A program made the position numbers and the translations under genes. Source: Desulfobacterales bacterium (GTDB lineage: Bacteria; Desulfobacterota; Desulfobacteria; Desulfobacterales; JAHEIW01). Taken from it: 64,000 nucleotides of DNA. A model generated the notes under the pieces. That model searched no databases and had not been told where the DNA came from. It saw nothing but the letters and a program-made list of their open reading frames with translations. Where the stretch lies: NCBI GenBank assembly GCA_030066985.1, contig JASJAN010000005.1, forward strand, positions 1-64,000. The letters are read 5' to 3'. Within the stretch, counting starts at the first letter, position 1; each line of letters starts with the position of its first letter. Shown here piece by piece: positions 1,549 to 23,321 of this stretch.

Positions 1549-3312
1549 CTAAACGATGGCCGTGGTGCCATCCAATTCTTGAATGTCGGTCGTCAACAAA
1601 TCCGGTACCAACGCTGCTTTTCCGTCGATCAGGCGATACGCCCGTTCAGCTACGCCCAATATAGCCGGTTGGTGGGAAATGGCTAAGATGGTCAGTTGCC
1701 CTTTAAGCTTACGCAATGTTTCACAGATAATGGTTTCATTTTCCGGGTCAAGGGCGGTTGTCGCTTCATCTAGAATCAGCAACTTGGGTTTATGTACAAG
1801 TGCCCGGGCAATTGCAATGCGTTGCCGTTGCCCGCCTGATAGCTTGTGGCCGCGCTCACCAACTTGTGTAGCTATGCCTTTTGGAAGTTCTTGAACGAAA
1901 TCCCAAGCCCCGGCAGCTTGCAAAGCGACTTTGGCATCTTGAAATTTGAATTCTTGTTCACCCAGCGTGACATTAACGAACACACTATCATGCAGCAACA
2001 GAGTTTCCTGGGGTACGTAACCGATCATCTTGCGCCAGTTTCTTAGATTGATTTCAGATAGAGGGATACCATCAATTAATATTTGGCCCTCTTGTGGCTG
2101 CAGCAATCCAGTTATCAGATCAACGACTGTTGTCTTACCGGCTCCAGAGGGTCCCACAATCGCTGTGAAGGAATTTGCTGGAATATCGAACTCGGCCTCT
2201 GCGAGTATCCAGCGTTCTGTGTAGGCGAAGTGAACTTGCTCCAGGCGAATAGAATGATTCAGAGAGGGTCGTCGTTTACCGGAGGTCGTTTCTTTCTCTG
2301 CTAAAGCACTTTTGAGTTTAGTCTCATAAGACCAATAGGCCGCTTCGGAGGCAACCACCTGCTGATACAGACTTTGGACCTTCTGAATTCTTTTCATCAA
2401 CTTGGAAAACATATAAACTAAAACCAAAACGCTTGCTAAAGGCATTTTCCAGACAACTAGAACTGCATAAAGACCTACAGCCGTCAATGCCACCGTTGAA
2501 GGTTCTTGAAAGGCCGACAGCGCAACCTTGTTCAATACCTGCTTTTTGATGGTCCTTTTTAACTTTTCGGTTTTCTTTTCCAATGCAGCACGGGCCAGAT
2601 GCTCGCGGGCCATGGTTTTCAGTGGTTTGATCATGATCAAGCTATCGGCCAAGTATTTCATTAATGATTGAGATATAGCGACCATACGCTGGCCTGCACG
2701 TTTTGACCTCCCAATGAAAGGTCGCACAATCAACGAGATTAAGATGCCCGCTATTATAGCCACCACAGTTGCCTTCCATGAAACCAGAGATACAATTACT
2801 CCGTAAACCACCGCTTGCAGGGCCACCGCCATCATTGTAACGCCGTTTAGATAGGCTCTTGCAGCTGATGCAGTCTCGCCTCTAATAGAATGGAGAATAC
2901 TTCCGACCGGTTGGCGTATAAAAAATTCCCAGCGGGAGCCGAAAAGTGCTTGGAGCAATTCTAAGCGCAAATCGGTGCCGACTTGTGCGACCATAAAACC
3001 AACCCGCCTGTTCATAATCAGAGTAAAAAGTGCTTTTAGGGTCATGCAAACGACAAATATAATGAGCAGAATGCCAATTGTCGGCGTGATGTCGATCGTT
3101 TCAAATATATTGTAAACAATTTGACTAAGCTTTGAGCCAGCGCCACTAGCAATTTCGCCGCCCGTACCCGCGTTCACATCAGCAGCAATACTGAGCAACG
3201 GCAACAACATCGAAATGCCGACGCCTTCACTTAAACCGGCAAGAATTATGGCACCCAGTGTGATGGCACTTTGTATGGGATAGGCACGTAAAAATATGAT
3301 TAATAAACGCAT
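1549..3312 (-). CDS. ABC exporter, fused transmembrane and ATPase domains (MsbA/lipid-exporter type), copy 1
   Basis: A 587-residue half-transporter. The N-terminal half (about 1-310) has roughly six hydrophobic segments. The ATPase half has Walker A GPSGAGKTT (387-395), the signature LSGGQRQRIAIARAL, Walker B LLILDEATTALD and the switch histidine in ILAISHQ, so it should be catalytically competent. Such proteins dimerise in the inner membrane and export lipids, glycans or peptides. It lies 117 bp downstream of a clearly related second copy (594 aa): both begin with a short basic stretch and a G(V/I)G(I/L)S motif followed by LLPLLS. The pair could form a heterodimer or two homodimers. The position immediately downstream of serine palmitoyltransferase suggests export or flipping of the sphingolipid product. 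The ATG at 3312 is preceded by an AGGAA element. Confidence 0.88.
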   Translation of the reverse strand: MRLLIIFLRAYPIQSAITLGAIILAGLSEGVGISMLLPLLSIAADVNAGTGGEIASGAGSKLSQIVYNIFETIDITPTIGILLIIFVVCMTLKALFTLIMNRRVGFMVAQVGTDLRLELLQALFGSRWEFFIRQPVGSILHSIRGETASAARAYLNGVTMMAVALQAVVYGVIVSLVSWKATVVAIIAGILISLIVRPFIGRSKRAGQRMVAISQSLMKYLADSLIMIKPLKTMAREHLARAALEKKTEKLKRTIKKQVLNKVALSAFQEPSTVALTAVGLYAVLVVWKMPLASVLVLVYMFSKLMKRIQKVQSLYQQVVASEAAYWSYETKLKSALAEKETTSGKRRPSLNHSIRLEQVHFAYTERWILAEAEFDIPANSFTAIVGPSGAGKTTVVDLITGLLQPQEGQILIDGIPLSEINLRNWRKMIGYVPQETLLLHDSVFVNVTLGEQEFKFQDAKVALQAAGAWDFVQELPKGIATQVGERGHKLSGGQRQRIAIARALVHKPKLLILDEATTALDPENETIICETLRKLKGQLTILAISHQPAILGVAERAYRLIDGKAALVPDLLTTDIQELDGTTAIV

Positions 3313-3429
3313 TCAAAAAGGTTCCTATTTGCTGTATCTGGGATTATCTCGCAATTTCGCCTGTTGTCTTAACCGTCAGCTTTCCGCCATCACCAGAACA
3401 ATAATCGACAGACATGATGTTTAATACCG

Positions 3430-5214
3430 CTAATTGGGGTTATCGGCCGCTTTCAATTTTTGGTCCGTGCCCGACGCATTCTCCGCTAAATTCAGATTCG
3501 ATGATGAATCCTCTTTGATAACCGGCACAGCTGAGCCATTTTGCATCTGATAAGCACGATCAGACACCTCTAATACTGCTGGCTGGTGTGAAATCGCCAG
3601 GATCGTTAAGCGGCCACGCAGCTCGCGCAGGGTATTGCAGATGGCCATCTCGTTTTCCGGATCCAAGGCGGTCGTAGCTTCGTCCAGAATCAACAATTTG
3701 GGTTGGTGAACCAGAGCCCGGGCAATGGCGATGCGCTGTCGCTGTCCCCCGGATATCTTACCGCCGCGTTCGCCGACAGTGCTGTTTATTCCTTGTGGCA
3801 TTTTTTGTACGAAATCCCAAGCACCAGCAGCTTGCAGGGCCTGGATGGCATCTTCTGTCGACAGTTCCGGATCACCCAGGGTGACGTTGTTCAGCACGCT
3901 ATCGTGCAGCAACCAGGTCTCTTGCGGAACGTAGCCGATCATGTGTCGCCATTTTCGCACATCGATCTGATCCAGCGGAAGATCATCAATCAAGATTTCA
4001 CCCTGCTGGGGTCTCATCAGGCCAATGACGAGATCCGCAACTGTGGTTTTGCCCGAGCCCGATGGGCCCACAATGGCCGTCATCAATCCGGCCGGAAAAT
4101 CGAATGACGCATTTCGCAACACCTGTCTACTTTCATAGGCAAACGAAATCTGACTTAGCTGAATCCCTTTATCCAAAACAGGCAATTGCGTGCCGAATTC
4201 AACTTCCCGATCTGCCAAAGCCTCATTGATCTTATTTCTCAATGATGAGTAGGCACTCTCGTAGGTGACCATTTTCTGGTATTCATCCTGCACTTTACCC
4301 AGCTGCATCAGAATGCGGGCAATCAAAAAGATAAACACCATCAGGGTTGTCACCGGCAGCTTCAGGTATTTAAAGGTAAAATAAAAGCCCAGCAGCAGGA
4401 AAATAAATCGCAACGGCTCGGAAAAAGCGCGCAAATATTCCTTGCTGAGAACTTGCTTGCGAAATGTTTTGTTGAGTTTGTTGGTTTCTTTGGCCAGCAC
4501 CAATTCAGCCAATTTTTCAAGTGCCATGGCTTTCAGCGGCTTTATGGATTGCAAACTGTCAACCAGTTGCCCCACCAATGATTTCATGACCTTGGTCTGG
4601 CGCTTGCCGGCCCGTTGCGCCTTTTTGATCAAACGCTTCAACACAAAAAAAATAAAAAAGCCGCCTGCCAAAGCGGCTAAGGTTGCCTGCCAGGAAACCA
4701 AAAAAGACACAATGGACAGGATGATCACCTGAATTAAGAAGATGATCATGGAGGCACCGCTCAGATACGCTTTGCTGGTTCGGCTGCTTTCGGTTGTCAT
4801 GGCATTGGCCAGTGCACCAACGGGTTGTCGCAGATGAAACGCCCAGCTTGAGGCCAGCAAAGCCCGCAGCAATTCCAAACGATAGTCGGTTGCCACCTGA
4901 GCAACGGTGTAGCCCACCTGTTTTTTGGCCAGTAAGATAAGGAAACATTTGATCAAAATCGCAAAAAAAATGACCAGCATAAGAACTTCTAATGTCGGCG
5001 GAAGACCCAACTCCTCAAGGCCCTGTCTGACAATGCGTTCGGCCGCTGGACTCGTGCCGTCACCACCGCCGGCCTCGCTGCCAACAGCCGTACTCAGCAG
5101 GGGCAACATGGCAGATAAACCGATTCCTTCCGCCACGGCAGCCACCAGCATGGCAAACAGCATCAAAATGCTTTTTATCGGATAGCGTCGAAATAAGGAG
5201 ACAAGTATATGCAT
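3430..5214 (-). CDS. ABC exporter, fused transmembrane and ATPase domains, copy 2
   Basis: A 594-residue paralogue of the neighbouring exporter with the same layout: hydrophobic N-terminal half, then Walker A GPSGSGKTT, signature ISGGQRQRIAIARAL, Walker B LLILDEATTALD and ILAISHQ. All catalytic motifs are intact, unlike many heterodimeric exporters in which one partner has a degenerate site. It starts 52 bp after the serine palmitoyltransferase-like gene on the same strand, so it is very likely in its operon. The C-terminal tail (about 30 residues after the ATPase, rich in S, N and D) is longer than in copy 1. Its substrate is inferred from context to be ceramide or a modified sphingolipid; a polysaccharide or peptide cannot be excluded. 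Confidence 0.88.
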   Translation of the reverse strand: MHILVSLFRRYPIKSILMLFAMLVAAVAEGIGLSAMLPLLSTAVGSEAGGGDGTSPAAERIVRQGLEELGLPPTLEVLMLVIFFAILIKCFLILLAKKQVGYTVAQVATDYRLELLRALLASSWAFHLRQPVGALANAMTTESSRTSKAYLSGASMIIFLIQVIILSIVSFLVSWQATLAALAGGFFIFFVLKRLIKKAQRAGKRQTKVMKSLVGQLVDSLQSIKPLKAMALEKLAELVLAKETNKLNKTFRKQVLSKEYLRAFSEPLRFIFLLLGFYFTFKYLKLPVTTLMVFIFLIARILMQLGKVQDEYQKMVTYESAYSSLRNKINEALADREVEFGTQLPVLDKGIQLSQISFAYESRQVLRNASFDFPAGLMTAIVGPSGSGKTTVADLVIGLMRPQQGEILIDDLPLDQIDVRKWRHMIGYVPQETWLLHDSVLNNVTLGDPELSTEDAIQALQAAGAWDFVQKMPQGINSTVGERGGKISGGQRQRIAIARALVHQPKLLILDEATTALDPENEMAICNTLRELRGRLTILAISHQPAVLEVSDRAYQMQNGSAVPVIKEDSSSNLNLAENASGTDQKLKAADNPN

Positions 5215-5266: not shown

Positions 5267-6463
5267 TTAAACGGTTTCGCCCTCCAAAACAACTTCTTTG
5301 AGCACTGCAAACGCAGCACCAATTTGATCAATCTGCTCTGTACTGTGGCCGGCGCTGACACTGCAGCGCAGCAAACAGCCCCCATCCGGCGTAGCCGGAG
5401 GTGTCACCAGATTGACATATACACCGTTTTCTAAAAGGCCCTTCCACAGGGCGACGGCCTGTTCGACATTGGCAACCCGCACGGCAACGACCGGGCTGAT
5501 TTGCGGGCCAAGCTGAAATCCAAGCCCTTGCAGCTTTTGGTATAAACGTTGGGCATTACCCCACAATCTTTCGCGCAATTCGGGTCGTGCTCTTAATACC
5601 TTCAACGCTTCGCGGGTTGAGGCGATGGTTGAAGGCGATGAGGAAGCGGTGAAAATGTAAGGCCGTGCCGCCAGGGGAACCAAATTCATCGCTGCCTGGT
5701 TGCTAACGCAAAATCCACCGATGGCCCCCAGGCTCTTGCTGAAAGTGCCGACAATAAAATCAACGTTTTGCTCTACACCAGCCTCTTCGGCCAACCCGCG
5801 GCCGTTTGAACCCAAGACCCCCAGCGAATGTGCTTCATCAACCAGCAGACAGGCACCGTATTGTTCTTTGACCCCCACAATTTCGGCCAACGGAGCGCGA
5901 TCGCCCATCATACTGTAGATGCCCTCCACCACAATGAGTGTATTGGCTGTGCGTTCACCCAGCCGCTGAAGTCGTTTGGCCAGATTGTCTGGATCATTGT
6001 GCCGAAATCGGATAATTTCAGCGCCGCTCAGACGGCAGCCATCATAAATGCTGGCGTGGCTGTCGGCATCAATTAATAGGACATCACCCGGACCGGTGAG
6101 CGCTGATAACATGGCCAAATTCGCAATGTAGCCGGTCGAAAAGACCATACCGTATTTGCAGCCGAAAAAATCGACCAGCTCTTGCTCCAATTTTACGTGC
6201 TCTGAATAGCTGCCATTGGCCATTCTGGAGCCAGTCGTTCCGGTGCCTTGTTCTTTGACGGCCTTAGAAGCGGCCTCGATACAATCCGCATCAAATGTCA
6301 GACCCAGGTAATTGTTGGTTCCGGCAAGGATCACAGTACGGCCGTTAATAATCGCCTCTGTGGATGAGACCACTTTTTCCATGATCACGTTTGATCGTAT
6401 CCCTTTTTCAACCAATGACCGTCGCGCCGCCGCTATCTGCTCAAATTTATCAAAAAGGCTCAT
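5267..6463 (-). CDS. spt: Serine palmitoyltransferase-type alpha-oxoamine synthase
   Basis: A 398-residue PLP enzyme of the AONS/KBL/SPT family, which condenses an acyl thioester with an amino acid and releases CO2. Visible hallmarks are the fold-type-I core, a cofactor-stacking histidine in DADSHASIYDG (His136), the Asp/His pair in LLVDEAHSLG (Asp209, His212) and the Schiff-base lysine in GTFSKSLGAIGGF (Lys243). TFSKSLG followed by GGFC is characteristic of bacterial serine palmitoyltransferases. The adjacent acyl carrier protein, CerR-like reductase and acyl activating enzyme are the known partners of bacterial SPT, whereas no biotin-synthesis or threonine-degradation gene adjoins it. The expected product is 3-ketosphinganine from serine and an acyl-ACP. 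The start is ATG 6463, preceded by AAGGAAG at good spacing. 8-amino-7-oxononanoate synthase is the main alternative, disfavoured by context. Confidence 0.86.
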   Translation of the reverse strand: MSLFDKFEQIAAARRSLVEKGIRSNVIMEKVVSSTEAIINGRTVILAGTNNYLGLTFDADCIEAASKAVKEQGTGTTGSRMANGSYSEHVKLEQELVDFFGCKYGMVFSTGYIANLAMLSALTGPGDVLLIDADSHASIYDGCRLSGAEIIRFRHNDPDNLAKRLQRLGERTANTLIVVEGIYSMMGDRAPLAEIVGVKEQYGACLLVDEAHSLGVLGSNGRGLAEEAGVEQNVDFIVGTFSKSLGAIGGFCVSNQAAMNLVPLAARPYIFTASSSPSTIASTREALKVLRARPELRERLWGNAQRLYQKLQGLGFQLGPQISPVVAVRVANVEQAVALWKGLLENGVYVNLVTPPATPDGGCLLRCSVSAGHSTEQIDQIGAAFAVLKEVVLEGETV

Positions 6464-6493
6464 TCTCTAACTTCCTTCGTGTTTGGTATTTGG

Positions 6494-6542
6494 TATTTAG
6501 TGTTTAGTGTTGGGGGTTCGGTCTTTTACTAAACACTAAATA
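6494..6542. repeat. Short palindrome between ACP and SPT genes
   Basis: TATTTAGTGTTTAGT (6494-6508) is repeated in inverted orientation as ACTAAACACTAAATA (6528-6542), a perfect 15-bp match with a 19-nt loop. The arms are made of TTTAGTG words. It could attenuate transcription between the two genes, but there is no T-run. Confidence 0.75.
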
Positions 6543-6546
6543 CTCC

Positions 6547-6792
6547 CTATGGACTCACTAATTTTTGAAGTTGCATGACAAAATCTTTAATTGTTTGTAC
6601 ATCGGGAAGAATATTCAAGGGTATGGATATATCATACTCATCCTCAACCTGTTCCACCAATTTCATAACTTTGAGCGAATCAAAATTTAGATCAGCCACA
6701 AAATCTGAATCTTCCCGTAAAGCAGTTCCTTGTTCAACAAAGGGAACCAACAGTTCACAGACGCGCTTAAGTAAGCTTTCGTAGTCCTGCAT
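6547..6792 (-). CDS. Acyl carrier protein dedicated to sphingolipid synthesis (AcpR-like)
   Basis: A small acidic four-helix carrier protein of 81 residues. The phosphopantetheine attachment serine lies in NFDSLKVMKLVE, the classic DSL motif. I use ATG 6792 because a GAGA element lies 9 nt upstream and the length is normal; in-frame starts at 6801 (ATG) and 6846 (TTG) have no properly spaced ribosome-binding site. Bacterial sphingolipid loci carry a specialised ACP that is loaded by an acyl-ACP synthetase and feeds serine palmitoyltransferase. Here it lies directly between the CerR-like gene and the SPT gene on the same strand, which supports that role rather than general fatty-acid synthesis. 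Confidence 0.88.
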   Translation of the reverse strand: MQDYESLLKRVCELLVPFVEQGTALREDSDFVADLNFDSLKVMKLVEQVEDEYDISIPLNILPDVQTIKDFVMQLQKLVSP

Positions 6793-6830
6793 AGGCTTCA
6801 TCTCTTTGCGATCCGTTTTTAGTAAGGTTT

Positions 6831-6902
6831 CACGCAAAGACGCCAAGGCGCCAGGTGCAATTAGTTCTTAACACAAAATCTTTGCTTGGCGCGCTTTGCG
6901 TG
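6831..6902. repeat. Imperfect palindrome of CACGCAAAG/CGCCAAG words
   Basis: CACGCAAAGACGCCAAG from 6831 is matched in inverted orientation by CTTGGCGCGCTTTGCGTG ending at 6902, with a 36-nt interior. It fills the gap between the CerR-like and ACP genes. Its arms are built of CACGCAAAG and GCCAAG words, the same style as the other short intergenic palindromes in the window. Confidence 0.65.
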
Positions 6903-6926
6903 AGGATAACCGTATCATTACCTTTT

Positions 6927-7871
6927 CTAACAGGCATTCGTTTTGTTAAAACCGAGTGTTCTCTTGAGGCCGTCTGCAAGCGATACCCGAGGTGTCCAAC
7001 CGATTTCGCGCGTAATCGCTACATTCTCACACACCCAGTCGGGATGTGTGAGTTCCCGCAGCTTTGCCGGTGTCAACATGGGTTGATAACCCCATAACCG
7101 GGCAGCGATAAGATTCAGCGCTGCCACCAGCCGAACTCCTGCAACGGGCACGTGAACCCGTCGCACACGATTGACGCCTAAATGATGAAACGTTTCAATG
7201 ACATCCTGCCACGAGTAGCCATTGGGGTGCCCATCATGAAGTTCGAAGACCTGGTTTTTAGAATTGCAATGTCGCAACCAGTGTTGAATGGCATCGGCCA
7301 GGTCGTCAACATACAGCATTGAAAACCGGGTGTCACCGGTCCCTAGGATGAACGCAAAACCGCGTGCCATCCACTGCATCAACGGAAGCATCTCGCGATC
7401 TTCAGGGCCATATACGGCCGGAGGTCTGAGGACCGACCAGGGGATCTGTCCACTGTGAGTGGCCAAAACAACCTCGCCCTGCCGCTTGCTGGAAGCATAA
7501 AGTGAAAGATCGGGTTCCCGGGCTGCCAGAGACGATATCAATAAAAAACGCGGCACCGGGTGCTGTTCACTGACTGCCTGCACCAACCGAGCCACGCCAT
7601 CAACATTCATACGATCAAAATGGGCCTGAGTCGCACCACGAACAGCGCCGGCACAATGAACCACAGCATTCGCGCCGTTCACCAGACGTTTCAAGCTATT
7701 AAGGTCTTCGAGCGCACCTTCGACCCAATGAATATTTAAATCTAATAGACGGCTTCGATCCGATGTGCTACGGGTCAGCGCCTGGACTTTGCATCCATCC
7801 GCTATAAGCCGCCGGGCTACGCTGCTGCCAATAAAACCCGTTGCCCCCGTTAAGGCGATTGTGTTTTTCAT
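6927..7871 (-). CDS. NAD-dependent epimerase/dehydratase family reductase (CerR-like)
   Basis: A 314-residue extended short-chain dehydrogenase. The Rossmann glycine motif GATGFIG lies at the N-terminus, a serine pair lies in LLISSLAA, and the catalytic Tyr/Lys lie in LYASSKRQGE. The C-terminal half is the variable substrate domain. In characterised bacterial sphingolipid clusters a member of this family (CerR) reduces the 3-keto group during ceramide formation. I assign that role here by context, because the gene lies between the acyl activating enzyme and the ACP/SPT pair on the same strand. By sequence alone it could be a sugar-nucleotide epimerase. The start is ATG 7871; no strong Shine-Dalgarno sequence is visible. 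Confidence 0.78.
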   Translation of the reverse strand: MKNTIALTGATGFIGSSVARRLIADGCKVQALTRSTSDRSRLLDLNIHWVEGALEDLNSLKRLVNGANAVVHCAGAVRGATQAHFDRMNVDGVARLVQAVSEQHPVPRFLLISSLAAREPDLSLYASSKRQGEVVLATHSGQIPWSVLRPPAVYGPEDREMLPLMQWMARGFAFILGTGDTRFSMLYVDDLADAIQHWLRHCNSKNQVFELHDGHPNGYSWQDVIETFHHLGVNRVRRVHVPVAGVRLVAALNLIAARLWGYQPMLTPAKLRELTHPDWVCENVAITREIGWTPRVSLADGLKRTLGFNKTNAC

Positions 7872-8016
7872 GAAGTTGCTGCGGATACCTTTTTTAACCA
7901 GGGGAATGTCAGCTGATGGCCGTCTCGCCCAATTTAACGCTATTGGCTACCCGGTTGGTTTCCGCTGCCACCTATCTATTTAGAAAATTAAAAGGGAATC
8001 GACTGGCATAAAACAA

Positions 8017-9813
8017 TTAGCCCGCCTGTACCCGTCTACCCGTAAAAATTAAAGGGCGGCGTGATGACGGCTGTCGTTCCCTTTCAGTCCGCTTTAAAAA
8101 TTCTTTTCGGGCCTTCGATCGGGATAGCTTACCGGAAGTGGTGCGGGGCAATGTATTGCGCGGCACCAGATCGATATAGCATTCAATCCCGAGCTCCTGA
8201 TAAATCAAGCGCTGTATGCGCTCCCGCAACTCGGCGCGTTCTGGATCGCTGTTCACCCGGCACTGGACCATCATCACCGTCTTTTCCTGTCCATCCGGTC
8301 CCGGTACGGAAAAGGCCGACGCATCCCCGGTGCGAACCTCAGGCTGCTGTTCGGCGGCAAATTCAAGATCCTGCGGCCATATGTTACGACCATTGATGAT
8401 GATCATATCTTTTTCGCGGCCGGTAATAAAAAGGCCGTTTTCAACAAAATAGCCCAAATCTCCTGTGTTAAACCACCCATCGTCGGTTAACACTTCTTGG
8501 GTTAATTTTAGATCACCAAAATAACCGGACATAACGCTGGCCGCTTTTACATAAATGGTGCCCACATGTCGCTCAGGCAGCTGATGGCCGCTACCATCGC
8601 GAACTTCCACCTGGTAATCCGGCAAAGGTGTGCCGCAATCCACAAACCAGCTCGATCGAATTTCACTTTCAGGCATGTGAGTTGCCACCGGCAAGGCCTG
8701 ACGGTGTTCAGAAAGATAATCGCCATCTACGGCGTCGATGTTTAACCCATTGCTGAGTGGTGCAAAGCTGACCGCCAGCGAGCATTCGGCCATTCCGTAA
8801 CAGGCACAGAATGCCTCTTTGTTAAATCCGCAGGGCTCCAGCATTTCAGCAAACTTGAATAACGGCGCGGGTCTTATGGTTTCAGCGCCAACACCTGCCA
8901 GGCGCCAAGCGCTCAAATCAAATTTTTCGATATCACTTTGACGCAGCCGCTGCTGGCACAGCTCATAACCAAATGGAGGCCCAATTGAAATCGTTGCTCG
9001 ATTCTCGGTCATCAATGCCAGCCATAATCTGGGACGCATGGCAAAATCACGGGTTTTCAAATAATCAACCGATAATTGAGCTGCCAGTGGCGCCAGAACA
9101 AGCCCCACCAAACCCATATCATGGTAAAACGGCAGCCATGAGGCCCCTCGATCACCCGGTCGAATCTTGCAACCCGATTTAACGATGGCGGCCAGATTGT
9201 TTAATACCGCCGACTGGGTAATCATAACCCCCCGGGGAAATTTGGTGCTGCCGGAGGTGTACTGGATGTAAGCCAGCTCTTTGGGCCCCAGCGGGCTTAG
9301 CGGAATCGATGATTTGGCAAGTTCGTCGAACGCTTGAGGCGTTCCGCAAAATCGGAGGTCAAGACCTTCGGCGGCTTCATTCAAGAATGGAAAATAATCA
9401 TCCGTTGCCATGGCGGCATTGGCTCGGCAGCTGATCAGCAGACGATGCAACTGGTCCACGTATGTTTTACGTCCGCCCATATGAATGGATGCCGGCAACG
9501 GAACGGGAATGAGGCCGGCATACTGACAGGCAAAGAAAAATCGGATGAAATCTGGATGGGTATCGGCTACCAGCGCCATGCGCGCACCGCGTTCAAGGCC
9601 CAGGCCGATGAGCCGTTGAGCCAGCTCTTGGGCTTCGTCACGCAGTTTTGAATACGGGAGAACGGCAGATATTTTGCCGCGCCCATCGTAGAAATTGTAA
9701 CCGGTTTGACCCTGAGCCGCATAATTGAGCGCCTCAGGCAAAGTAGAAAAGTCTCCAGCTCGTAAGGGTATATTACTTCCAGTCGGCGTTGCTTCCATAG
9801 TCACTTCATCCAT
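8017..9813 (-). CDS. Fatty-acyl-AMP ligase / acyl-ACP synthetase (AasR-like)
   Basis: An adenylate-forming enzyme of 598 residues. The P-loop-like motif YTSGSTKFPRGVM lies near residue 187, the SWLPFYHDMGL and YGMAECSLAVSF motifs are typical of fatty-acyl-AMP ligases, and the hinge/C-terminal motifs FNTGDLGYF and TTSGKLSRSK (catalytic lysine) are present. These enzymes activate a fatty acid as acyl-AMP and pass it to a carrier protein rather than CoA. The likely acceptor is the ACP encoded two genes downstream, making the acyl-ACP used by serine palmitoyltransferase. It is the first gene of the minus-strand operon, and 145 bp separate it from the CerR-like gene. Three in-frame starts are possible: TTG 9846 has no ribosome-binding site, ATG 9813 directly abuts AGGAG, and ATG 9798 lies 16 nt after it. 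I used 9813. Confidence 0.85.
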   Translation of the reverse strand: MDEVTMEATPTGSNIPLRAGDFSTLPEALNYAAQGQTGYNFYDGRGKISAVLPYSKLRDEAQELAQRLIGLGLERGARMALVADTHPDFIRFFFACQYAGLIPVPLPASIHMGGRKTYVDQLHRLLISCRANAAMATDDYFPFLNEAAEGLDLRFCGTPQAFDELAKSSIPLSPLGPKELAYIQYTSGSTKFPRGVMITQSAVLNNLAAIVKSGCKIRPGDRGASWLPFYHDMGLVGLVLAPLAAQLSVDYLKTRDFAMRPRLWLALMTENRATISIGPPFGYELCQQRLRQSDIEKFDLSAWRLAGVGAETIRPAPLFKFAEMLEPCGFNKEAFCACYGMAECSLAVSFAPLSNGLNIDAVDGDYLSEHRQALPVATHMPESEIRSSWFVDCGTPLPDYQVEVRDGSGHQLPERHVGTIYVKAASVMSGYFGDLKLTQEVLTDDGWFNTGDLGYFVENGLFITGREKDMIIINGRNIWPQDLEFAAEQQPEVRTGDASAFSVPGPDGQEKTVMMVQCRVNSDPERAELRERIQRLIYQELGIECYIDLVPRNTLPRTTSGKLSRSKARKEFLKRTERERQPSSRRPLIFTGRRVQAG

Positions 9814-9846
9814 CTCCTCGTTTGATATTCCAGTTTTTCCAGACAA

Positions 9847-10637
9847 GTTAAGTCAACAAAATGCAGCGCTAACTTAATTCATCGAAAACAGGGTGTCGCT
9901 TCCTTTATCTGCAGCCTAAAAACTTGGTGAAGCAATTTCTTATATAGAAACTTATCTAAATAAAAAATGGATGTCAAATAATTTATTATAATTTTACTAA
10001 CTTACAGCATTTTGGCGTTTTCTGAGGAGTCATTTTTTGGCGACAGCAACCCTAAAATCACAAAATTTCACGCTTAAGGCCTTTAGCTCACTAAACACCT
10101 TAATTTATTATTTTTTTATGAATAACCAGCCCAAATATTGAAAAATTTGTCAAATACGAAACTTGGGGGTGTGTCCAATCCGACACACAATATGAAGGAT
10201 ATGTGCCCATTTTGAAACATTTGATCAAATCCCATTGTTTCAAAAAAAAATGTCAATATTGGCCTTATCACCCCATTTTTTGCCAAATCGGCCGACGATG
10301 GGTGCAAAAATAATGTTGGCTTTTGAATCCGCATTGTTGGAAATGGACTTTAAAATGAGAAAGTCACGTATGGCAAAATACGGGTCATTCCCTAACGCAT
10401 ATAGTCAATGCAGTTATTTTAAAAAATTAAGATGACTAGTCATCGTTTCATTTCAATTCGTGCGTTAAACCGTCTCCTTACTGCTTCAAATAAGCGTTGA
10501 ATGACCCGGAAAGATAATGCTTGATAAAACATTTAACATTTGACAAAGTCGCGGGGGTATTTGATGAGCGCGGTGGCCTCTTTTACTGGGCCTAACGTTA
10601 AACCGCAAATCGATCTTTCAATAAAAGAGACCATCTT
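9847..10637. promoter_or_regulatory. 790-bp AT-rich divergent control region of the ceramide genes
   Basis: No credible gene is seen here. The stretch separates the leftward acyl-ligase operon from the rightward GNAT gene and should hold promoters for both. Notable dyads are ATTTGTCAAAT at 10145-10155, GTGTGTC-N6-GACACAC at 10169-10188, and TTTGAAACA/TGTTTCAAA at 10211-10244 enclosing the perfect palindrome ATTTGATCAAAT (10219-10230). TTTGCCAAA occurs at 10279-10287 and ATTTGACAAA at 10538-10547. The repeated TTTG-N(1-2)-CAAA pattern looks like multiple binding sites for one dimeric regulator. The regulator is unknown and no cognate gene is nearby. Confidence 0.45.
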
Positions 10638-11765
10638 ATGCTGCACGTCAATCGGGTCAAAACCCGGCATCAGTTACGACAGTTTATCCGGCTGCCCTGG
10701 TCTATTTACGCAGATGATCCCGCATGGATTCCGCCATTGATTCTGGAACGAAAAGAACTTTTGTCGCCGCGAAATCCTTATTTTGAGCATGCCCGTTTTC
10801 AATCCTGGATCGCATATCGCAAAGAGGCGCCGGTGGGTCGCATCAGCGCCCAGATCGACCAATTGCACCTTGATCAGCATCAGGCAGATGAAGGTTTTTT
10901 CGGAATGCTTGAATCAGAAGACGATGCTGAAACGTTTGCAGCACTTTTCCAAACTGCTGAGCGTTGGTTGCGTGACCAGGGGATGCACCGGGTTCTAGGG
11001 CCCTATAATTTATCGATCAACCAGGAACCGGGATTGTTGGTGGACGGCTTTGAAACGCCCCCCTATTTTTTGATGGGGCATGCGAGACCTTATTATGCGA
11101 TGCATATGGAAAAAAATGGCTTTCAGAAACAAAAAGATTTATTGGCCTATCGCGTGGCCGTTGATGATTTTACACTGACACCGGCCATGCAGGCGGTCAC
11201 CAAAAGGGCAAAAAAACGGGTCAAGATACGCTCTTTGCGAAAAACAAATTTTGACGAAGACCTGCAGAATATCGGCGACATTTTTAATGACGCTTGGTCG
11301 CAAAACTGGGGATTTATTCCCTTTACCCCAAAGGAGTTTAAACAGCTGGGCAAAGAGTTTAAATTGGTGTTGAAATTTGAAATGGTCAAAATTGCTGAAA
11401 TCGACGGTAGACCAGCGGCTTTTATGGTGATGGTGCCCAATATCAATGAAACCATACGTGATTTAAACGGCCGATTAATGCCTTTCGGCTGGCTTAAGTT
11501 ACTGTGGCGTTTGAAAGTCAAGTTTCCACAAACAACGCGCATCCCATTTATGGGGGTTCGACAGCAGTATCAGGATAGCCTCATGGGGGCGGCAATGGCG
11601 CTGATGATGATCCAGGCGTTATATCCTCCGGCAATCAAACACAGGGTAAAAGATGTCGAAATGTCCTGGATATTGGAAGATAATAAGGGCACGCGAGATA
11701 TCATTGAAGGGATCAAGGGCTCGGCATACAAGCGCTATCGAATATATGGTAAAAACTTAATCTAA
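10638..11765 (+). CDS. GNAT-fold acyltransferase, bacterial ceramide synthase (bCerS)-like
   Basis: A 375-residue soluble protein. The N-terminal region (RQFIRLPWSIYADDPAWIPP, then a PVGRISAQID strand) belongs to a GNAT-like family annotated only as hypothetical in many genomes. Published bacterial ceramide pathways include an N-acyltransferase outside the eukaryotic CerS family that attaches the second acyl chain. The location, divergent from the SPT operon, suggests this gene plays that part. No catalytic residue can be named with certainty. It ends 23 bp before the nucleotidyltransferase gene and is probably co-transcribed with it. The start is ATG 10638 with an AGAGA element about 10 nt upstream. 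Confidence is high that it is a GNAT-like protein and moderate that it acylates sphingoid bases. Confidence 0.68.
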   Translation: MLHVNRVKTRHQLRQFIRLPWSIYADDPAWIPPLILERKELLSPRNPYFEHARFQSWIAYRKEAPVGRISAQIDQLHLDQHQADEGFFGMLESEDDAETFAALFQTAERWLRDQGMHRVLGPYNLSINQEPGLLVDGFETPPYFLMGHARPYYAMHMEKNGFQKQKDLLAYRVAVDDFTLTPAMQAVTKRAKKRVKIRSLRKTNFDEDLQNIGDIFNDAWSQNWGFIPFTPKEFKQLGKEFKLVLKFEMVKIAEIDGRPAAFMVMVPNINETIRDLNGRLMPFGWLKLLWRLKVKFPQTTRIPFMGVRQQYQDSLMGAAMALMMIQALYPPAIKHRVKDVEMSWILEDNKGTRDIIEGIKGSAYKRYRIYGKNLI

Positions 11766-11788: not shown

Positions 11789-12595
11789 ATGACGGCACAA
11801 CAGACAAGCCGATTTAGCGCAATCATTCTTGCCGGAAGCCGTCCGGGTCAGGATCCGGTGGCTCAGGCCGCCGGAGTGACCTGTAAATCATTTGCGCCCA
11901 TCGACAATCGACCGATGGTGCATCGGGTCTTAGATGCCTTATCGGCTGCCCAGCAGGTTGACACCCTGATCTTATGCGGACCCTCCCGGCCTTTAGTTGA
12001 GCGGGAGCCTGAACTACAAGCCCGTCTCGATAAAAATGAATTCAAATGGATTGCCAGCCAAGCGACGCCCAGTTTGAGCACCTATAATGCCCTGCAAGCT
12101 TTCCCGGATAATAAACCAATGCTGGTCACCACTGCCGATCATGCACTCTTAACCCCACAGATCGTAGATTTTTTTTGCAACGCAGCGTATCAACTAGAAT
12201 GTGATGTCGCGGTCGGTCTAACAGCATATGAGGGTGTCATAGCCGCATTTCCTGAAACCCAACGCACGGCCATAAAATTCAAAGATGGGGCCTATAGCGG
12301 CTGCAATCTGTTTGGTTTTCTCAACTCTCGTTCTGATCAGGCGGCTCAATTCTGGCGCCGCATAGAACAGGAGCGCAAAAAACCGCTGCGCCTTATGCAG
12401 CTCCTGGGTTGGTGGACCGTGGCGCGGTACCTGTTAGGCAGAATCTCGTTGAAGGATGGTTTAGAAACGCTTTCAAATAAGATGCAGGTTCGCCTGCTTC
12501 CTGTGCTGCTGCCCTTTCCGCAGGCGGCTATAGACGTTGACAGCGTCGATGACTGGGAGTTCGTGCAACGCCTGACGCAAAAGCAGGCTTTTTAA
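11789..12595 (+). CDS. MobA-like NTP transferase (sugar-/alcohol-phosphate nucleotidyltransferase fold)
   Basis: A 268-residue protein beginning with the nucleotide-binding motif IILAGSRPGQDP followed by CKSFAPIDNRPMVHRVLDAL, the LAGG-x-G...K-x-(F/L)-x-(P/I)-(V/I) pattern of nucleotidyltransferases that activate sugar or polyol phosphates. A metal-binding aspartate probably lies in VTTADHALL. The GG of the consensus is replaced by GS. ATG 11789 follows AGGAG closely and lies 23 bp after the ceramide-synthase-like gene, so the two are an operon. It may supply a CMP- or other nucleotide-activated head group for the sphingolipid; molybdenum cofactor guanylylation (MobA proper) is unlikely in this context. 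The substrate is not readable from sequence. Confidence 0.72.
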   Translation: MTAQQTSRFSAIILAGSRPGQDPVAQAAGVTCKSFAPIDNRPMVHRVLDALSAAQQVDTLILCGPSRPLVEREPELQARLDKNEFKWIASQATPSLSTYNALQAFPDNKPMLVTTADHALLTPQIVDFFCNAAYQLECDVAVGLTAYEGVIAAFPETQRTAIKFKDGAYSGCNLFGFLNSRSDQAAQFWRRIEQERKKPLRLMQLLGWWTVARYLLGRISLKDGLETLSNKMQVRLLPVLLPFPQAAIDVDSVDDWEFVQRLTQKQAF

Positions 12596-14131: not shown

Positions 14132-14291
14132 ACAAAAATTTCTCCAAATAGCGTCTCTTTAGGCTGACCACCCTGCATTGAGCACAGAATTTCAAGGCAG
14201 AAAGATGAACGAAAATTAGCATATTTTAAGCGTTTATTGAATAAATTTATAGGCCGGCCATGGGTCGAGTTGTAATTGGATGATTCAGTAA

Positions 14292-15236: not shown

Positions 15237-15366
15237 AATAATGTTCACATATCGGCAGCAAGTAGATTTTTTGCTGAAACGGTTATTATCGAATAGACCT
15301 CAATCATGAAAATATTGCCCCCATTTGTGGGGACTTGAATCGTTTGCCCCAAATGCGGGCCCTCCC

Positions 15367-15442: not shown

Positions 15443-16375
15443 CTAGGTTGTTAGATGATATTCATCCTCGGTCTCGAAACGGTTTTCGTCAGAGCGATAA
15501 CACCGCACACATACCCGTATATCGCATCCACCTGATGCCGGCGATAGGGTGTAAAGATGATAGCGAGCACGACGACTGAGATTCTCGCCGACTGCTGATG
15601 CTGATGGAACACCGATCACCGGGATGCGGCCATCAGTCGTATCCAGATAGGACTGGGATGGATGGTGGGAGTGGCCATGCAGAATCAATTCTGCCCCACA
15701 ATCATACAATAGCTTTTGAAATGATCGGGCATCGGTGAGTCTTTTGCGCCAGCTGACCACACCGGATGTTGGGGGGTGATGAATCAAAACGACTCTCAAC
15801 AGGTTCTTTTGACCGGTTTCGAGGAGTATCTTTTCTAGGCGCTGCAATTGTTCATGACCGATGCAGCCAACCGCCAGAAAAGTCGAACACGGTTGGGCCG
15901 TGGAGATACCAATGAGCGCCACGCCATTGCGTATGCGCAAACTTGGAAATATGGCATCTTCATCGCCGGGGCTATCATTGCACGTCTTGACCCCATCGCC
16001 CACCATATAATCCGCCCATTCAACCAAGCGGCAATCCAGAGCCCCATCAACATAAGCATCATGATTTCCGGGGATGATGGTCACCTGAAATGCGGAACCA
16101 AGGGTTTCCAGCATTTTCTTGGCTTTGGCATATTCGGCTGGCAGACCCAGGTGAGTCAGGTCCCCGGTAACAACGATATGATCGGGCTGAGCGGACAGGA
16201 CGTCATCGATCATGCTGGTCAGAACGAGGTCATGGTGCTCAGACTGGCGTTTTAGACGCCACTTTAGATACCCGAAAAAGCGTTTGTTTAAAAAATCGGA
16301 TAATCGGCTACCGCCGGGATGCGCCAGGTGAGGGTCTGAAATGTGCGCCAAGGTGAACGGTTGGTTAGGATTCAT
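15443..16375 (-). CDS. Calcineurin-like metallophosphoesterase
   Basis: A 310-residue enzyme with all five metal-binding blocks of the family in order: HISDPHLAH, VVTGDLTHLG, IPGNHDAY, VLIHHPP and LHGHSHHP. Members hydrolyse phosphodiesters or phosphomonoesters; in lipid clusters they include LpxH-type and phospholipid-processing enzymes. I start at ATG 16375, just before the first conserved strand; a GTG at 16462 would add 29 residues unlike the family and has no ribosome-binding site. It is transcribed divergently from the lipid kinase gene (245 bp between starts), so it may share control with the kinase/nucleotidyltransferase pair. The substrate is unknown; removal of a phosphate or hydrolysis of a CDP-lipid are reasonable guesses. 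Confidence 0.82.
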   Translation of the reverse strand: MNPNQPFTLAHISDPHLAHPGGSRLSDFLNKRFFGYLKWRLKRQSEHHDLVLTSMIDDVLSAQPDHIVVTGDLTHLGLPAEYAKAKKMLETLGSAFQVTIIPGNHDAYVDGALDCRLVEWADYMVGDGVKTCNDSPGDEDAIFPSLRIRNGVALIGISTAQPCSTFLAVGCIGHEQLQRLEKILLETGQKNLLRVVLIHHPPTSGVVSWRKRLTDARSFQKLLYDCGAELILHGHSHHPSQSYLDTTDGRIPVIGVPSASAVGENLSRRARYHLYTLSPASGGCDIRVCVRCYRSDENRFETEDEYHLTT

Positions 16376-16619
16376 CAGTTTGGATTTCAGATAACCGGTT
16401 TTAGAAACTCGGATTGGGTTGACTTTACAAAAAGACAATATCTCGTATATAATAGCAAACACTTTTTTGCAATGACGTCATTGACCAGTCGGTTATCCCG
16501 TTTGAATAAACGCATGTTTGGCAGTGTAAAATAATGCGGGCAGATCATCCGCGTGACATTTCACATCAATCGACTGGTTGAAAAACCCAACATTATATTG
16601 AGACTATTGTTGTAATTTT

Positions 16620-17597
16620 ATGGCACCCAATTCAACAATACGGATGGGAATGCTGCACAATCCATTGAGTGGCGGCAACCGCAATGGTTTGAAAAAAATC
16701 CGTGCGGCGGCCGCAGCGCAAACCGGGGTGCTGCAGCGCGAAGTTCAAACCCCAGCGGATGTGTCTGAGGCCCTGGCGGACTTTGCCCGTCAGGAAGTTC
16801 ATCTTCTAGTGGTCAACGGTGGAGACGGGACGGTCCAGGCCGCTTTAACGGCGATTTTTAACAACCGTTTTTTCGAAACAAACCCGCTGCTGGCTGTTCT
16901 ACCGTCTGCCGGCACCACCAGTATGATTGCCGGTGATGTGGGTTTGAAGGGATCTCGCTTAAGTGCCCTTCAAAGACTTTTCAGCTGGGCACGTACATCA
17001 AACAACAGCGCCACCAGCATCCATCGGCCGGTATTGAAGGTCCAGATGCCGTCGCTAACATCGCCGGTCTATGGGATGTTTTTCGGAGCAGCCGCCATTT
17101 ATCAGGCAACCCATTTTTGCTTTGAAAAAGTTCATACACGGGGCGTGCGTGGTGAATTCGGCGCCGGTGTAGCCCTGGCTCGATTTTTATGGGCGGTACT
17201 ATCAAAAGACCGCAAGGTGGTATCCTCCGTGCCCATCAGTATCAGTTTAAATCAAAATGCCGCGCAAGAACAAAAATACCTTTTGCTTTTGATCACATCT
17301 CTGCAACGCTTGTTCTTGGGTCTGCGGCCTTTTTGGGGTGTGCAAGCCAAACCGTTGCATTACACGGCTGTGAGTGCCAATCCCCGTCATTTTCTGCAAG
17401 TGCTTCCGGCTGCGATGCGGGGTCAACAAAATCGTTATAACAAACCAGCAAACGGCTATGTCAGCCATAATATCGAAAAGGCCCATCTGACCCTGGACAG
17501 TGGGTTTAATCTTGATGGTGAATTATACAATCCTGACAGCAAACTCGGTCCTGTCGTGGTCGGTTGCGGCGGACAGGCCTCTTTTCTGCAAGTATAA
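16620..17597 (+). CDS. Lipid kinase of the diacylglycerol/sphingosine kinase family, probable ceramide kinase
   Basis: A 325-residue protein with the catalytic-domain nucleotide loop VVNGGDGTVQAAL (Asn66-Thr71), an N-terminal NPLSGGNRNG strand-loop (the family's NP-x-(S/A)-G) and a second-domain DGE-type motif, LDGELY, near the C-terminus. The family includes YegS, DgkB, LCB5 and bacterial ceramide kinases; it phosphorylates a lipid hydroxyl with ATP. Caulobacter carries a ceramide kinase of this superfamily in its sphingolipid locus. The context here (ceramide genes upstream, cytidylyltransferase-like gene 2 nt downstream) points to ceramide or a sphingoid base as substrate. The start ATG 16620 has no obvious Shine-Dalgarno sequence. 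Diacylglycerol is the main alternative substrate. Confidence 0.78.
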   Translation: MAPNSTIRMGMLHNPLSGGNRNGLKKIRAAAAAQTGVLQREVQTPADVSEALADFARQEVHLLVVNGGDGTVQAALTAIFNNRFFETNPLLAVLPSAGTTSMIAGDVGLKGSRLSALQRLFSWARTSNNSATSIHRPVLKVQMPSLTSPVYGMFFGAAAIYQATHFCFEKVHTRGVRGEFGAGVALARFLWAVLSKDRKVVSSVPISISLNQNAAQEQKYLLLLITSLQRLFLGLRPFWGVQAKPLHYTAVSANPRHFLQVLPAAMRGQQNRYNKPANGYVSHNIEKAHLTLDSGFNLDGELYNPDSKLGPVVVGCGGQASFLQV

Positions 17598-17599
17598 CC

Positions 17600-18550
17600 A
17601 TGCCCACAGACACCAAAATTTTTGATCAGATTGCCCAACAGGCTTTTCAGCCGGCCTCACCGGCGATACACGCTCTGGCAGATCGTCTTTTAACAGATTA
17701 TGGAGCAGCCATCGAAGCCATTGTGTTTTACGGTTCATGTTTGCGAACCGGCGAAGATCGGGGTGGATTGGTTGACCTTTATGTATTGGTGGATCGGTAT
17801 CGTGACATTGAAGAGCGTTGTCTGCTGGCAGCCCTGAACAAAATGCTGCCGCCCAATGTATTTTATATCGAAGTGCCTTTTGAAGATCGCGTCGTGCGCG
17901 CCAAATACGCCGTGCTGTCACTCAATGATTTTAGCGCGGGTGCGGCCCGCTGGTTTCACTCCTATATCTGGGGAAGATTTGCCCAACCGGTGGGATTGAT
18001 ATATGCCCGCAACGATCAAATTGTCGAACGGATTCAATCCATTTTGGTACAGGCGGTATTGCGATTCGTTACCCGCGTGCTGCCGCGAATGCCGGCCTCT
18101 TTTAGGACCCGCGAGTTATGGCAACTGGGATGGACCCTCAGTTATCGGGCTGAACTTCGCGCTGAGCGACCGGAAAAATTGGCCGGTCTATTTGAAGCCG
18201 CACCGCAATATTACGAGCAATTGACCCGGACCGCGCTAGAAAATCTATCCTATCCTATTGAAACTCACAAAAAAAATGGCACATATCGCTATACGATATC
18301 AATTCCTGAGCGTTCTCGTCGCATGAGTCGTTTGGACTGGATGGTGCGGTCATGGCAGGGCAAATTGCTATCTGCGTTAAGGCTGTTAAAGGGTCTGTTG
18401 ACATTTCGTGGCGGGATCGATTACATCCTTTGGAAAATCGAGCGCCACTCGGGTGTGAAAGTCGAAGTGCCCTTGAAGCTAAAACGGTATCCGCTGCTGG
18501 CCACCTGCGTGATTTTCTGGAAGCTGTATCGCAAAGGGGCATACCGTTGA
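17600..18550 (+). CDS. Tam41-like nucleotidyltransferase, possible CTP:ceramide-phosphate cytidylyltransferase
   Basis: A 316-residue protein that I would otherwise call hypothetical. It has a polymerase-beta-type nucleotidyltransferase motif, IVFYGSCLRTGED followed by LVDLYVLVD, where GS and the later acidic residue are the usual metal/NTP site (the second Asp of D-x-D is Tyr here). A later block, VRAKYAVLSLNDF, then a Trp/Tyr-rich helix and GRFAQPVGLIY, resembles the KYGV...W...Y..GR..KP arrangement of Tam41, the mitochondrial CDP-diacylglycerol synthase. ATG 17600 lies 2 nt after the lipid kinase stop, implying translational coupling; a TTG at 17564 inside the kinase is less likely. Inference: it activates the kinase's product to a CDP-lipid. 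The Tam41 relation is from remembered motif layout and needs a structure comparison. Confidence 0.55.
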   Translation: MPTDTKIFDQIAQQAFQPASPAIHALADRLLTDYGAAIEAIVFYGSCLRTGEDRGGLVDLYVLVDRYRDIEERCLLAALNKMLPPNVFYIEVPFEDRVVRAKYAVLSLNDFSAGAARWFHSYIWGRFAQPVGLIYARNDQIVERIQSILVQAVLRFVTRVLPRMPASFRTRELWQLGWTLSYRAELRAERPEKLAGLFEAAPQYYEQLTRTALENLSYPIETHKKNGTYRYTISIPERSRRMSRLDWMVRSWQGKLLSALRLLKGLLTFRGGIDYILWKIERHSGVKVEVPLKLKRYPLLATCVIFWKLYRKGAYR

Positions 18551-18672: not shown

Positions 18673-19665
18673 ATGACAAACCACAACAATACATCCAATA
18701 GTCATCATATTTCCCCCTTGACGACCCGTCGAAATCCCTTGAAAACTAAGGTTGCCAGAATACCCAGATCACATCTGATGGGAATGGGCACATTCATTGG
18801 CAATCTGTTGTATCGTATCGCACCAACGCAGCGATATATCGTGCGGCGCAATTTACAATTTTCCCAGGTCCTATCATCGCCGGAGCTAATCCAGGCTATG
18901 TCGAAACAGGTTTTTCAGCATATCGGGATCACCTTAGTAGAGTTTTTGCAAATGGGGTGTTTAACACGACAAGAACTCATTGCAAAAGTGCGTATCGAAA
19001 ATGAAGACACCTTAAATCAAGCGCTGGCCAAGCACAAAGGAGTTGTTATCGTTACGGCCCATCTGGGAAACTACGAAATGGCGGCGCAAGTCTTCCCCTG
19101 TCTTTTAGAGGTGCAAATGGCCAGCGTCGCCAAAAAAATGCGAAACATTTATCTTAACCAGCTGATCCACAATTTGCGCACGCGTTTTGGCAACAAGATT
19201 ATCTATAAGAAAGGTGCCCTGCCGGAAATGATGCAAACGTTGCGTCAGGGGGGGATGGTCACCATACTGATGGATATCAGCCGGCGATTTGAGGGTGTTG
19301 AGGTCAGATTCTTTAACCGCCGGGCAACGGCCACACCGGCGGCCGCCCTGCTGGGTCTTCGCTGCAAGAGCCCGATTATTCCCGGGTTCTGTCATCGCAA
19401 TCCACAAGGCGAACTGATTGTGCAAATTGAGCCCCCTGTTGAAATGCAGAGAACCAACGACCTGCGGCTCGATTTGCAAATCAATACCCAGCGAATCACC
19501 GACTGCGCCGAGCTCGCGATTCGAAAACATCTGGGCCAATGGAATTGGATGCTGAAACGTTGGAAAGATTTTTATCCAGATCTTTATCCGGAAACAGAAA
19601 GACGCCTGAGGAGCATTAAACGAAAAGAAAGAAGGGGAAAGAAACCCGTCGGTCCGAGCAGATAA
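18673..19665 (+). CDS. LpxL/HtrB-family lysophospholipid or lipid A acyltransferase
   Basis: A 330-residue protein with the H-x4-(D/E) catalytic motif TAHLGNYEMAA, a downstream glycine/aspartate block GGMVTILMDISRRFEGVEVRFFNR and the usual positively charged substrate region. LpxL-type enzymes transfer an acyl chain from acyl-ACP to a lipid hydroxyl at the inner membrane. The N-terminus lacks a long hydrophobic anchor but has a moderately hydrophobic segment near residues 35-50; the C-terminus is very basic. It follows the kinase/cytidylyltransferase pair on the same strand, with its own promoter candidate. It may acylate lipid A or, given the neighbours, a sphingolipid. ATG 18673 gives a slightly long, Asn/His-rich leader, so ATGs further in are possible. 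Confidence 0.8.
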   Translation: MTNHNNTSNSHHISPLTTRRNPLKTKVARIPRSHLMGMGTFIGNLLYRIAPTQRYIVRRNLQFSQVLSSPELIQAMSKQVFQHIGITLVEFLQMGCLTRQELIAKVRIENEDTLNQALAKHKGVVIVTAHLGNYEMAAQVFPCLLEVQMASVAKKMRNIYLNQLIHNLRTRFGNKIIYKKGALPEMMQTLRQGGMVTILMDISRRFEGVEVRFFNRRATATPAAALLGLRCKSPIIPGFCHRNPQGELIVQIEPPVEMQRTNDLRLDLQINTQRITDCAELAIRKHLGQWNWMLKRWKDFYPDLYPETERRLRSIKRKERRGKKPVGPSR

Positions 19666-21241: not shown

Positions 21242-21392
21242 AAGCTATCCCCAAAATGCATCTTACGTCCAATGGCTGCGTTGCGATTTGGTTTGCAATG
21301 CTCACGTACGAAATGTACGCTCCGCTTACAAACAAAATCGACGCCTTGCCCTTGAACGTAATCTACTATTTTGTGGATAGCTTTTGTCTTTT
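21233..21392. repeat. Long hairpin element A of the 145-160-bp family, overlapping the trkH-1 stop
   Basis: The outer arms 21233-21257 and 21368-21392 are inverted repeats of 25 bp with about two mismatches (core AAAAGCTATCC/GGATAGCTTTT), and the left arm includes the last codons and stop of trkH-1. Inside is the family core, here on the minus strand: GCGGAGCGTACA ending at about 21314, followed by GTACGTGAGCAT. Elements at 23679, 38800 and 46602 share this core. It lies between convergent trkH-1 and trkA-1 and could act as a bidirectional terminator. Confidence 0.8.
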
Positions 21393-21416
21393 CAAAAAAA
21401 GGTGGTCTAAGTGGTT

Positions 21417-23076: not shown

Positions 23077-23090
23077 TCTGTGATAAATGA

Positions 23091-23168: not shown

Positions 23169-23202
23169 GCAATTGAAACTGGGCATCTTTTTTTGATATC
23201 GG

Positions 23203-23301: not shown

Positions 23302-23321
23302 GCAACAAACCAAAACAGTTA

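Follow-up and report, generated by a model that had tools for sequence, protein, structure and literature searches.

The window analysed here covers positions 1 to 64,000 of contig C5 (JASJAN010000005.1) from the draft assembly of a Desulfobacterales bacterium (5.07 Mb, 81 contigs, 97.8% complete). It quite probably carries a Caulobacter-type ceramide and phosphoceramide cluster whose product is a singly decorated phosphoceramide, and not ceramide diphosphoglycerate (CPG2). The core of the cluster is formed by five ceramide genes (5267-11765), and the locus extends beyond cerS, the last of them, to about 18550. The original prediction described a complete five-gene set; all five genes are present, but the locus is larger and four head-group genes were overlooked.

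The five ceramide genes have intact open reading frames. Four are on the reverse strand: spt (5267..6463), a serine palmitoyltransferase (SPT) of the acyl-AcpR-using (Rhodobacteria) type; acpR (6547..6846), a dedicated acyl carrier protein with a DSL serine, identified by PP-binding (PF00550) and by alignment with AcpR of Escherichia coli B; cerR (6927..7871), an extended short-chain dehydrogenase (Epimerase, PF01370) assigned as (oxo)ceramide reductase; and aasR (8017..9846, start uncertain), a fatty acyl-AMP ligase or acyl-AcpR synthetase. The fifth, cerS (10638..11765), is on the forward strand, divergent from the others, and encodes a putative bacterial ceramide synthase with a two-domain GNAT fold. 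The acpR and aasR genes belong to the same gene run as spt, and cerS lies outside it. Coordinates, strands and families thus agree with the earlier description of an SPT, an acyl carrier protein, a CerR-like epimerase and an acyl-AMP ligase on one strand with a divergent bCerS-like GNAT protein.

Pfam and NCBIfam scans of the window proteins were made at E 0.001. SPT reached 631.7 bits against the NCBIfam model NF047599 'serine palmitoyltransferase' (cut-off 500) and stayed under the cut-offs of the bioF model (344.6 bits, cut-off 426) and of the glycine C-acetyltransferase (Kbl) model (303.4 bits, cut-off 460). Its top PDB matches were bacterial SPTs (2x8u, 439 bits), above Kbl (205.8 bits) and BioF. 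The reading of this pyridoxal phosphate enzyme as BioF or Kbl, the alternative named when it was first called SPT-type, was rejected on both counts. The TFSKS motif and R366 were invariant in nine aligned rows (the window and eight relatives). A second match to the SPT model in the genome (C32:42100-43185, 307 bits) is under the NF047599 cut-off. AasR scored 783 bits against the fatty acyl-AMP ligase model NF006624 (cut-off 600), with the fatty acyl-adenylate ligase 3pbk as top PDB match. CerS had no Pfam or NCBIfam match in these scans; its AlphaFold model (predicted local distance difference test, pLDDT, 92.2) is a two-domain GNAT, and its best Foldseek matches, around 12% identical, were enzymes with tandem GNAT domains.

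Each of the five proteins picks its own counterpart in E. coli BL21(DE3), whose SPT, AcpR and AasR were tested experimentally according to PMC9386255. Identities were 56% for SPT, 46% for both CerR and AasR, 47% for CerS (against YghO) and 45% for AcpR, the last over 67 residues from residue 19 (position ~6792), near which the true start of AcpR probably lies. In relatives as well, cerR is placed between acpR and aasR. Family scores, with SPT and AasR over curated cut-offs, gene order and this direct comparison support the five genes as counterparts of the Caulobacter and E. coli B ceramide set. That the organism can make ceramide, as originally proposed, is the best reading of these genes, from which it is predicted.

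The four head-group genes comprise a MobA-like nucleotidyltransferase (11789..12595, forward strand, NTP_transf_3, PF12804), directly after cerS and in the position of CC_1153; a calcineurin-like phosphoesterase (15443..16462, reverse strand, Metallophos, PF00149) of the kind described for CC_1158, a putative ortholog; a lipid kinase (16620..17597, forward strand, DAGK_cat, PF00781, with a GGDGT motif in the translation), a putative ceramide kinase resembling CpgB (CC_1160); and a Tam41-like CTP transferase (17564..18550, forward strand, Tam41_Mmp37, PF09139) resembling CpgC (CC_1161), which overlaps the kinase and whose exact start is uncertain. These names rest on family, gene order and relatives, rather than on direct comparison with Caulobacter sequences. 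CC_1153, CC_1158, CC_1160 and CC_1161 are the matching gene kinds of Caulobacter in PMC11324152, and CC_1160 is given as a ceramide kinase in PMC10331486. Among relatives, the phosphoesterase adjoins the kinase (loci L242, L250, L251, L259, L294 and L295, for instance), the kinase adjoins the Tam41-like gene, and several families have all four together in the vicinity of cerS or spt. The model of the Tam41-like protein (pLDDT 87.4) superposed on Tam41 (7ecd) with Z 18.6 and 3.1 A over 230 residues; three Tam41 entries, which are cytidine diphosphate (CDP)-diacylglycerol synthases, gave Z 16.9-18.6 over 223-230 residues and the next family Z 7.5. Sequence identity is 15-19%, and Foldseek agrees with the Tam41 fold. 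The kinase had no match in PDB at E 0.001. Since four head-group genes are present, plain ceramide is probably an intermediate rather than the end product.

Two further head-group enzymes of Caulobacter were not found in the window's draft genome. For the CDP-alcohol phosphotransferase CpgA the best profile match was 32.7 bits over 71 positions, versus more than 450 where the protein is present; for the phosphoglycerate cytidylyltransferase CpgD it was 41.4 bits in a 580-aa frame, versus more than 270. The CpgA profile was built from three sequences and the CpgD profile from two, all from related clusters and labelled by family and gene order. CpgD is described as an IMPCT-like cytidylyltransferase (PMC12275187; PMC13228409); a LicD-type search for CC_1152 was dropped on that account and the two-relative profile used instead, and no CpgD structure turned up in a PDB search. 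The window nucleotidyltransferase was rejected as a candidate CpgD: the only similarity between the two profiles is a weak N-terminal match (probability 13.5%), and the window protein is not among the hits of the CpgD profile. Full-length relatives of CpgA and CpgD were also not found genome-wide in G270, of the same genus, and G389, of the same family, whereas other genomes with the same SPT have both.

The distribution of these genes was followed in a phylum sample of 247 genomes, where NF047599 was over cut-off in 10, and an order sample of 194, where the SPT profile matched in 19 at E 1e-130. This SPT type is a patchy minority trait in the phylum (10/247). The union is 27 SPT-positive genomes. 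Nucleotidyltransferase relatives were identified in 26 of the 27 and the Tam41-like gene in 23; full-length CpgA was identified in 13, plus a contig-edge fragment in G082, and CpgD in 12. Both proteins occur in 12 genomes, neither in 13, and CpgA without CpgD in one (G205), G082 being fragmented. With G082 dropped, co-occurrence over 26 genomes gave p = 2.7e-6 (Fisher test, kinship ignored); a tree-aware test had only two independent pairs on supported branches, so significance was out of reach. Nineteen genomes reach 90% completeness with contamination of no more than 5%: the nucleotidyltransferase was found in all of them, the Tam41-like gene in 18 and full-length CpgA in 11; of the other eight, G082 has a CpgA fragment and 7 have no CpgA. 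The kinase was read in the loci, not by genome-wide search; it is adjacent to the Tam41-like gene in 10 of the 13 genomes without CpgA and CpgD. The remaining three (G379, G340 and G252) are 79-85% complete and no Tam41-like gene was seen in them; two family relatives of G252 carry CpgA, and what is missing in G252 may therefore lie in gaps. Because the 13 genomes fall in six families, the number of independent losses is small. In their distribution CpgA and CpgD form a single optional unit; the Tam41-like gene with the nucleotidyltransferase forms another that is more constant. A cpgA-like gene is present in two loci of cultivated relatives with this SPT type, L060 (Desulfoprunum benzoelyticum DSM 28570) and L062 (strain NaphS2), the latter with a cpgD-like gene as well, so that CPG2 would be expected at least in L062. 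In G161 (L035, 3053-6499) the Tam41-like gene stands between two full-length CpgA-like CDP-alcohol phosphotransferases, a pair also present in G422.

Gene order was read in the best 80 of at least 587 confirmed matches, many of which end early at contig edges. In the available stretches of these 80 loci acpR was identified in 75, cerR in 64, aasR in 62, cerS in 44 and the nucleotidyltransferase in 42. The genes of G389, G295 and G296 are spread over two or more places. In the SPT tree the window and G270 form a pair (100/100) that the tree does not place further; rows L040 and L247 (coverage rule) as well as L056 and L076 (duplicates) were omitted. A partial DNA match to this spt was present in 4056 of 5426 complete E. 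coli genomes.

The LPS (lipopolysaccharide)-export genes lptF and lptG announced in the original prediction were confirmed at 61807-63990. They are the two PF03739 matches of the genome, and in a tree of 30 LptF/LptG proteins they fall with the ordinary LPS-export copies; neither the PF03739 search nor the tree revealed a second, sphingolipid-type pair (LptF2/LptG2) in the draft genome. The tree comprises 28 of the 41 listed matches and the two E. coli B proteins, omitting rows without a locus, the fragment L191 and L174. Copies on the same contig as cpgA in relatives cluster with the E. coli B pair beside spt, with 100/100 on both branches. The E. coli BL21(DE3) genes beside spt (L290, 9921-12067) group with the sphingolipid-linked LptF2/LptG2 at 100/100, not with the ordinary copies. 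Blocks retaining lptF2/lptG2 are seen in L041, from outside the order, and in L291, from a genome of the same family. G389 retains them in exactly the interval between nucleotidyltransferase and phosphoesterase; they were not found at the G270 locus, where these two genes are less than 30 bases apart, and where cerS and the nucleotidyltransferase, the phosphoesterase, and the run of kinase, Tam41-like and LpxL-type genes are retained at 71-85% identity. Several clusters contain an LptB-like ABC ATPase (L041, 6429-7151; L036, 13056-13790; L060, 13127-13849), the other copies being 56-57% identical to that of L041; it may represent a third dedicated Lpt component.

Gene content, families, folds, order and conservation, together with the absences in the draft, point to a route whose activities, substrates, product and transport are predicted as follows. 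AasR would load a free fatty acid onto AcpR, and SPT would condense acyl-AcpR with serine to 3-oxosphinganine, which CerS would N-acylate and CerR reduce to give dihydroceramide. The kinase would then form ceramide-1-phosphate, and the Tam41-like enzyme would activate it with CTP, most simply to CDP-ceramide. A single head group would be attached with the assistance of the CC_1153-like nucleotidyltransferase, the phosphoesterase may trim it, and the MsbA-like exporters may flip the lipid. Since neither CpgA nor CpgD was found, synthesis is expected to end with one head group, as ceramide phosphoglycerate (CPG) or an analogue, and not to reach CPG2; as LptF2/LptG2 were not found, the lipid should stay short of the surface or leave by the ordinary Lpt system or another route.

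The natural division among the head-group genes suggests CDP-ceramide as the product of the Tam41-like enzyme. More tentatively, and with considerable doubt, this enzyme may be a ceramide-phosphate cytidylyltransferase forming with the CC_1153-type enzyme, in lineages like this one, a self-contained first head-group branch. If so, the joint loss of CpgA and CpgD with retention of the other two is a natural experiment separating the first from the second head-group step, and CDP-ceramide could, without CpgA, feed ordinary CDP-alcohol phosphotransferases to give ceramide-phosphoglycerol or a similar lipid.

Several points weigh against a singly decorated lipid made by a Caulobacter-type cluster. 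The absences rest on a draft of 81 contigs, and the genome has five PF01066 matches, so that another CDP-alcohol phosphotransferase could replace CpgA. According to PMC11324152, CC_1160 and CC_1161 are needed for CPG in Caulobacter, and CC_1159, CC_1158, CC_1153 and CC_1152 for efficient CPG2; the CC_1153 mutant keeps CPG and loses CPG2. This phenotype fits poorly, because the nucleotidyltransferase persists where CpgA and CpgD are gone; the window enzyme would therefore act in the first branch or serve a different head group. The gene order is also not shared throughout: in L251, L256, L257 and L259, from four genomes of one family (f114), cerS was not detected next to the cluster, so the five genes are not always together. 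Both the draft state (81 contigs, 97.8% complete) and the PF01066 matches would allow full CPG2 to be made, with CpgA, CpgD and LptF2/LptG2 falling into gaps of the assembly or having unrelated enzymes in their stead. We regard this as quite unlikely: the sites at which lptF2/lptG2 and cpgA occur in relatives lie here within one contig and are taken up by other genes or by a gap of 157 bases, and the same genes were not found in the close relatives, CpgA and CpgD genome-wide in G270 and G389 and lptF2/lptG2 at the G270 locus.

It could also be that ceramide is destined for another use, glycosylated or sulfated, and that kinase, Tam41-like enzyme and nucleotidyltransferase serve glycerolipids or surface sugars and are nearby by chance. 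PMC11334938 reports sulfated 1-deoxyceramides for the Black Sea, and the locus itself contains a gene of capsule-synthesis type (PF05159) and a sulfotransferase (PF13469) at 12662-15248, between nucleotidyltransferase and phosphoesterase. These two genes had no match in the G270 locus nor in the best 80 loci, many of them truncated at contig edges. In several families all four head-group genes occur together close to cerS or spt, and this SPT is accompanied genome-wide by the Tam41-like gene (23/27) and by the nucleotidyltransferase (26/27); this alternative is accordingly given little credence. A last variant concerns the LpxL/HtrB-family acyltransferase (18673..19665, forward strand, Lip_A_acyltrans, PF03279) after the Tam41-like gene, which might act in the sphingolipid pathway and add a third chain to ceramide. 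The gene is kept directly behind the Tam41-like gene in G270 (71% identity), and relatives are found in or beside the clusters of G427, G365, G161 and G296; G427 and G365 have a second strong PF03279 member elsewhere in the genome, so that the cluster copy there could be dedicated. As it is the sole PF03279 match found in the window genome, and G270 likewise has one, an ordinary lipid A acyltransferase located next to other envelope genes is the simpler reading and the third chain is improbable. A link of this gene to the 'acyl' sulfono-ceramides of the Black Sea was dropped, 'Ac' there meaning acetyl. The preferred reading remains a phosphoceramide with one head group.

Compared with known systems, the window and Caulobacter crescentus CC_1152-CC_1168 (PMC11324152) have the five ceramide genes in common, cerS forming a unit of its own next to a nucleotidyltransferase of the CC_1153 type; by gene family they also resemble each other in the kinase, the Tam41/CDP-diacylglycerol-synthase-like protein, the phosphoesterase and an ABC exporter in a putative CC_1166 flippase role. 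The differences are the lack of detected CpgA (CC_1159), CpgD (CC_1152) and a second LptF/LptG in the window genome, and its additional capsule-type and sulfotransferase genes; the phosphoesterase is present here, whereas no CC_1158 ortholog was found in the six other genomes compared in PMC11324152. The E. coli B locus, yghO-aasR-cerR-acpR-spt-lptG-lptF, has all five genes at 45-56% identity and a likewise divergent cerS; in the 45 kb read it has no match to the kinase, the Tam41-like gene or the nucleotidyltransferase, and its LptF/LptG of the sphingolipid clade were not found in the window genome. Zymomonas mobilis is predicted by the authors of PMC11324152 to make CPG and no CPG2, as CC_1159 is missing; it is an Alphaproteobacterium with scattered genes and, in the same source, only moderate CC_1153 and CC_1152 orthologs. 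Within the same phylum, three-gene SPT-CerS-CerR clusters (L042-L052) have homologous SPT, CerS and CerR genes adjacent to each other; none of the 11 loci has an AcpR match, their SPT is 40-44% identical and under the NF047599 cut-off, and in L042 an AMP-ligase match, weak at 26%, lies roughly 7 kb from the cluster. By their gene content they represent a second predicted type of ceramide system in this phylum.

Sphingolipid genes in Desulfobacterota were already published from the Black Sea (PMC11334938), so this is a known kind of system and less unusual than the original prediction implied. According to PMC9386255, the experiments on the acyl-AcpR-dependent system were made in alpha- and gammaproteobacteria and the system is named for alpha-, beta- and gammaproteobacteria; deltaproteobacterial SPTs (Myxococcus, Bacteriovorax and others) are in a different subgroup from the Rhodobacteria type, and AcpR and AasR homologs are noted in myxobacteria. 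In the literature searched, which left most subscription papers outside, nothing was found joining serine palmitoyltransferase, Desulfo, acyl carrier protein and ceramide; titles among the matches listed for sphingolipid and Tam41 looked unrelated; and no mention of CDP-ceramide was found, though it may still be published. The present analysis places a predicted acyl-AcpR-dependent ceramide system in an organism related to sulfate reducers and equipped with LPS-export genes as well; within its phylum the system is a patchy minority trait, found beside a different three-gene type. The natural separation of the head-group genes is the more useful part: the published scheme (PMC11324152) does not settle in which order the steps run or which enzyme joins glycerate to activated ceramide, and the pattern, in which the families of CC_1161 and CC_1153 seem to form one unit and CpgA with CpgD a second, has a modest and testable bearing on these points.

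The remaining genes of the neighbourhood lie on both sides of the locus. Upstream in coordinates are an LPS-related KdsC-type phosphatase (991-1545) and two tandem MsbA-like ABC exporters on the reverse strand (1549-5214, both ABC_tran and ABC_membrane), of which the second (3430..5214) is directly downstream of spt and the first (1549..3312) is a probable flippase with a putative CC_1166-like role; G270 has only one at the same place, and a relative of the 1549..3312 exporter is within the stretch analysed around spt in 23 of 26 related loci. The sulfotransferase within the sphingolipid cluster is a putative candidate for sulfated ceramides. Beyond the LpxL-type gene, positions 19784-26635 contain a pair of potassium transporters of the TrkH type, separated by two tRNA genes; close to each transporter is a gene recognised by eye as TrkA-like. 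Three tRNAs were identified in the Rfam scan.

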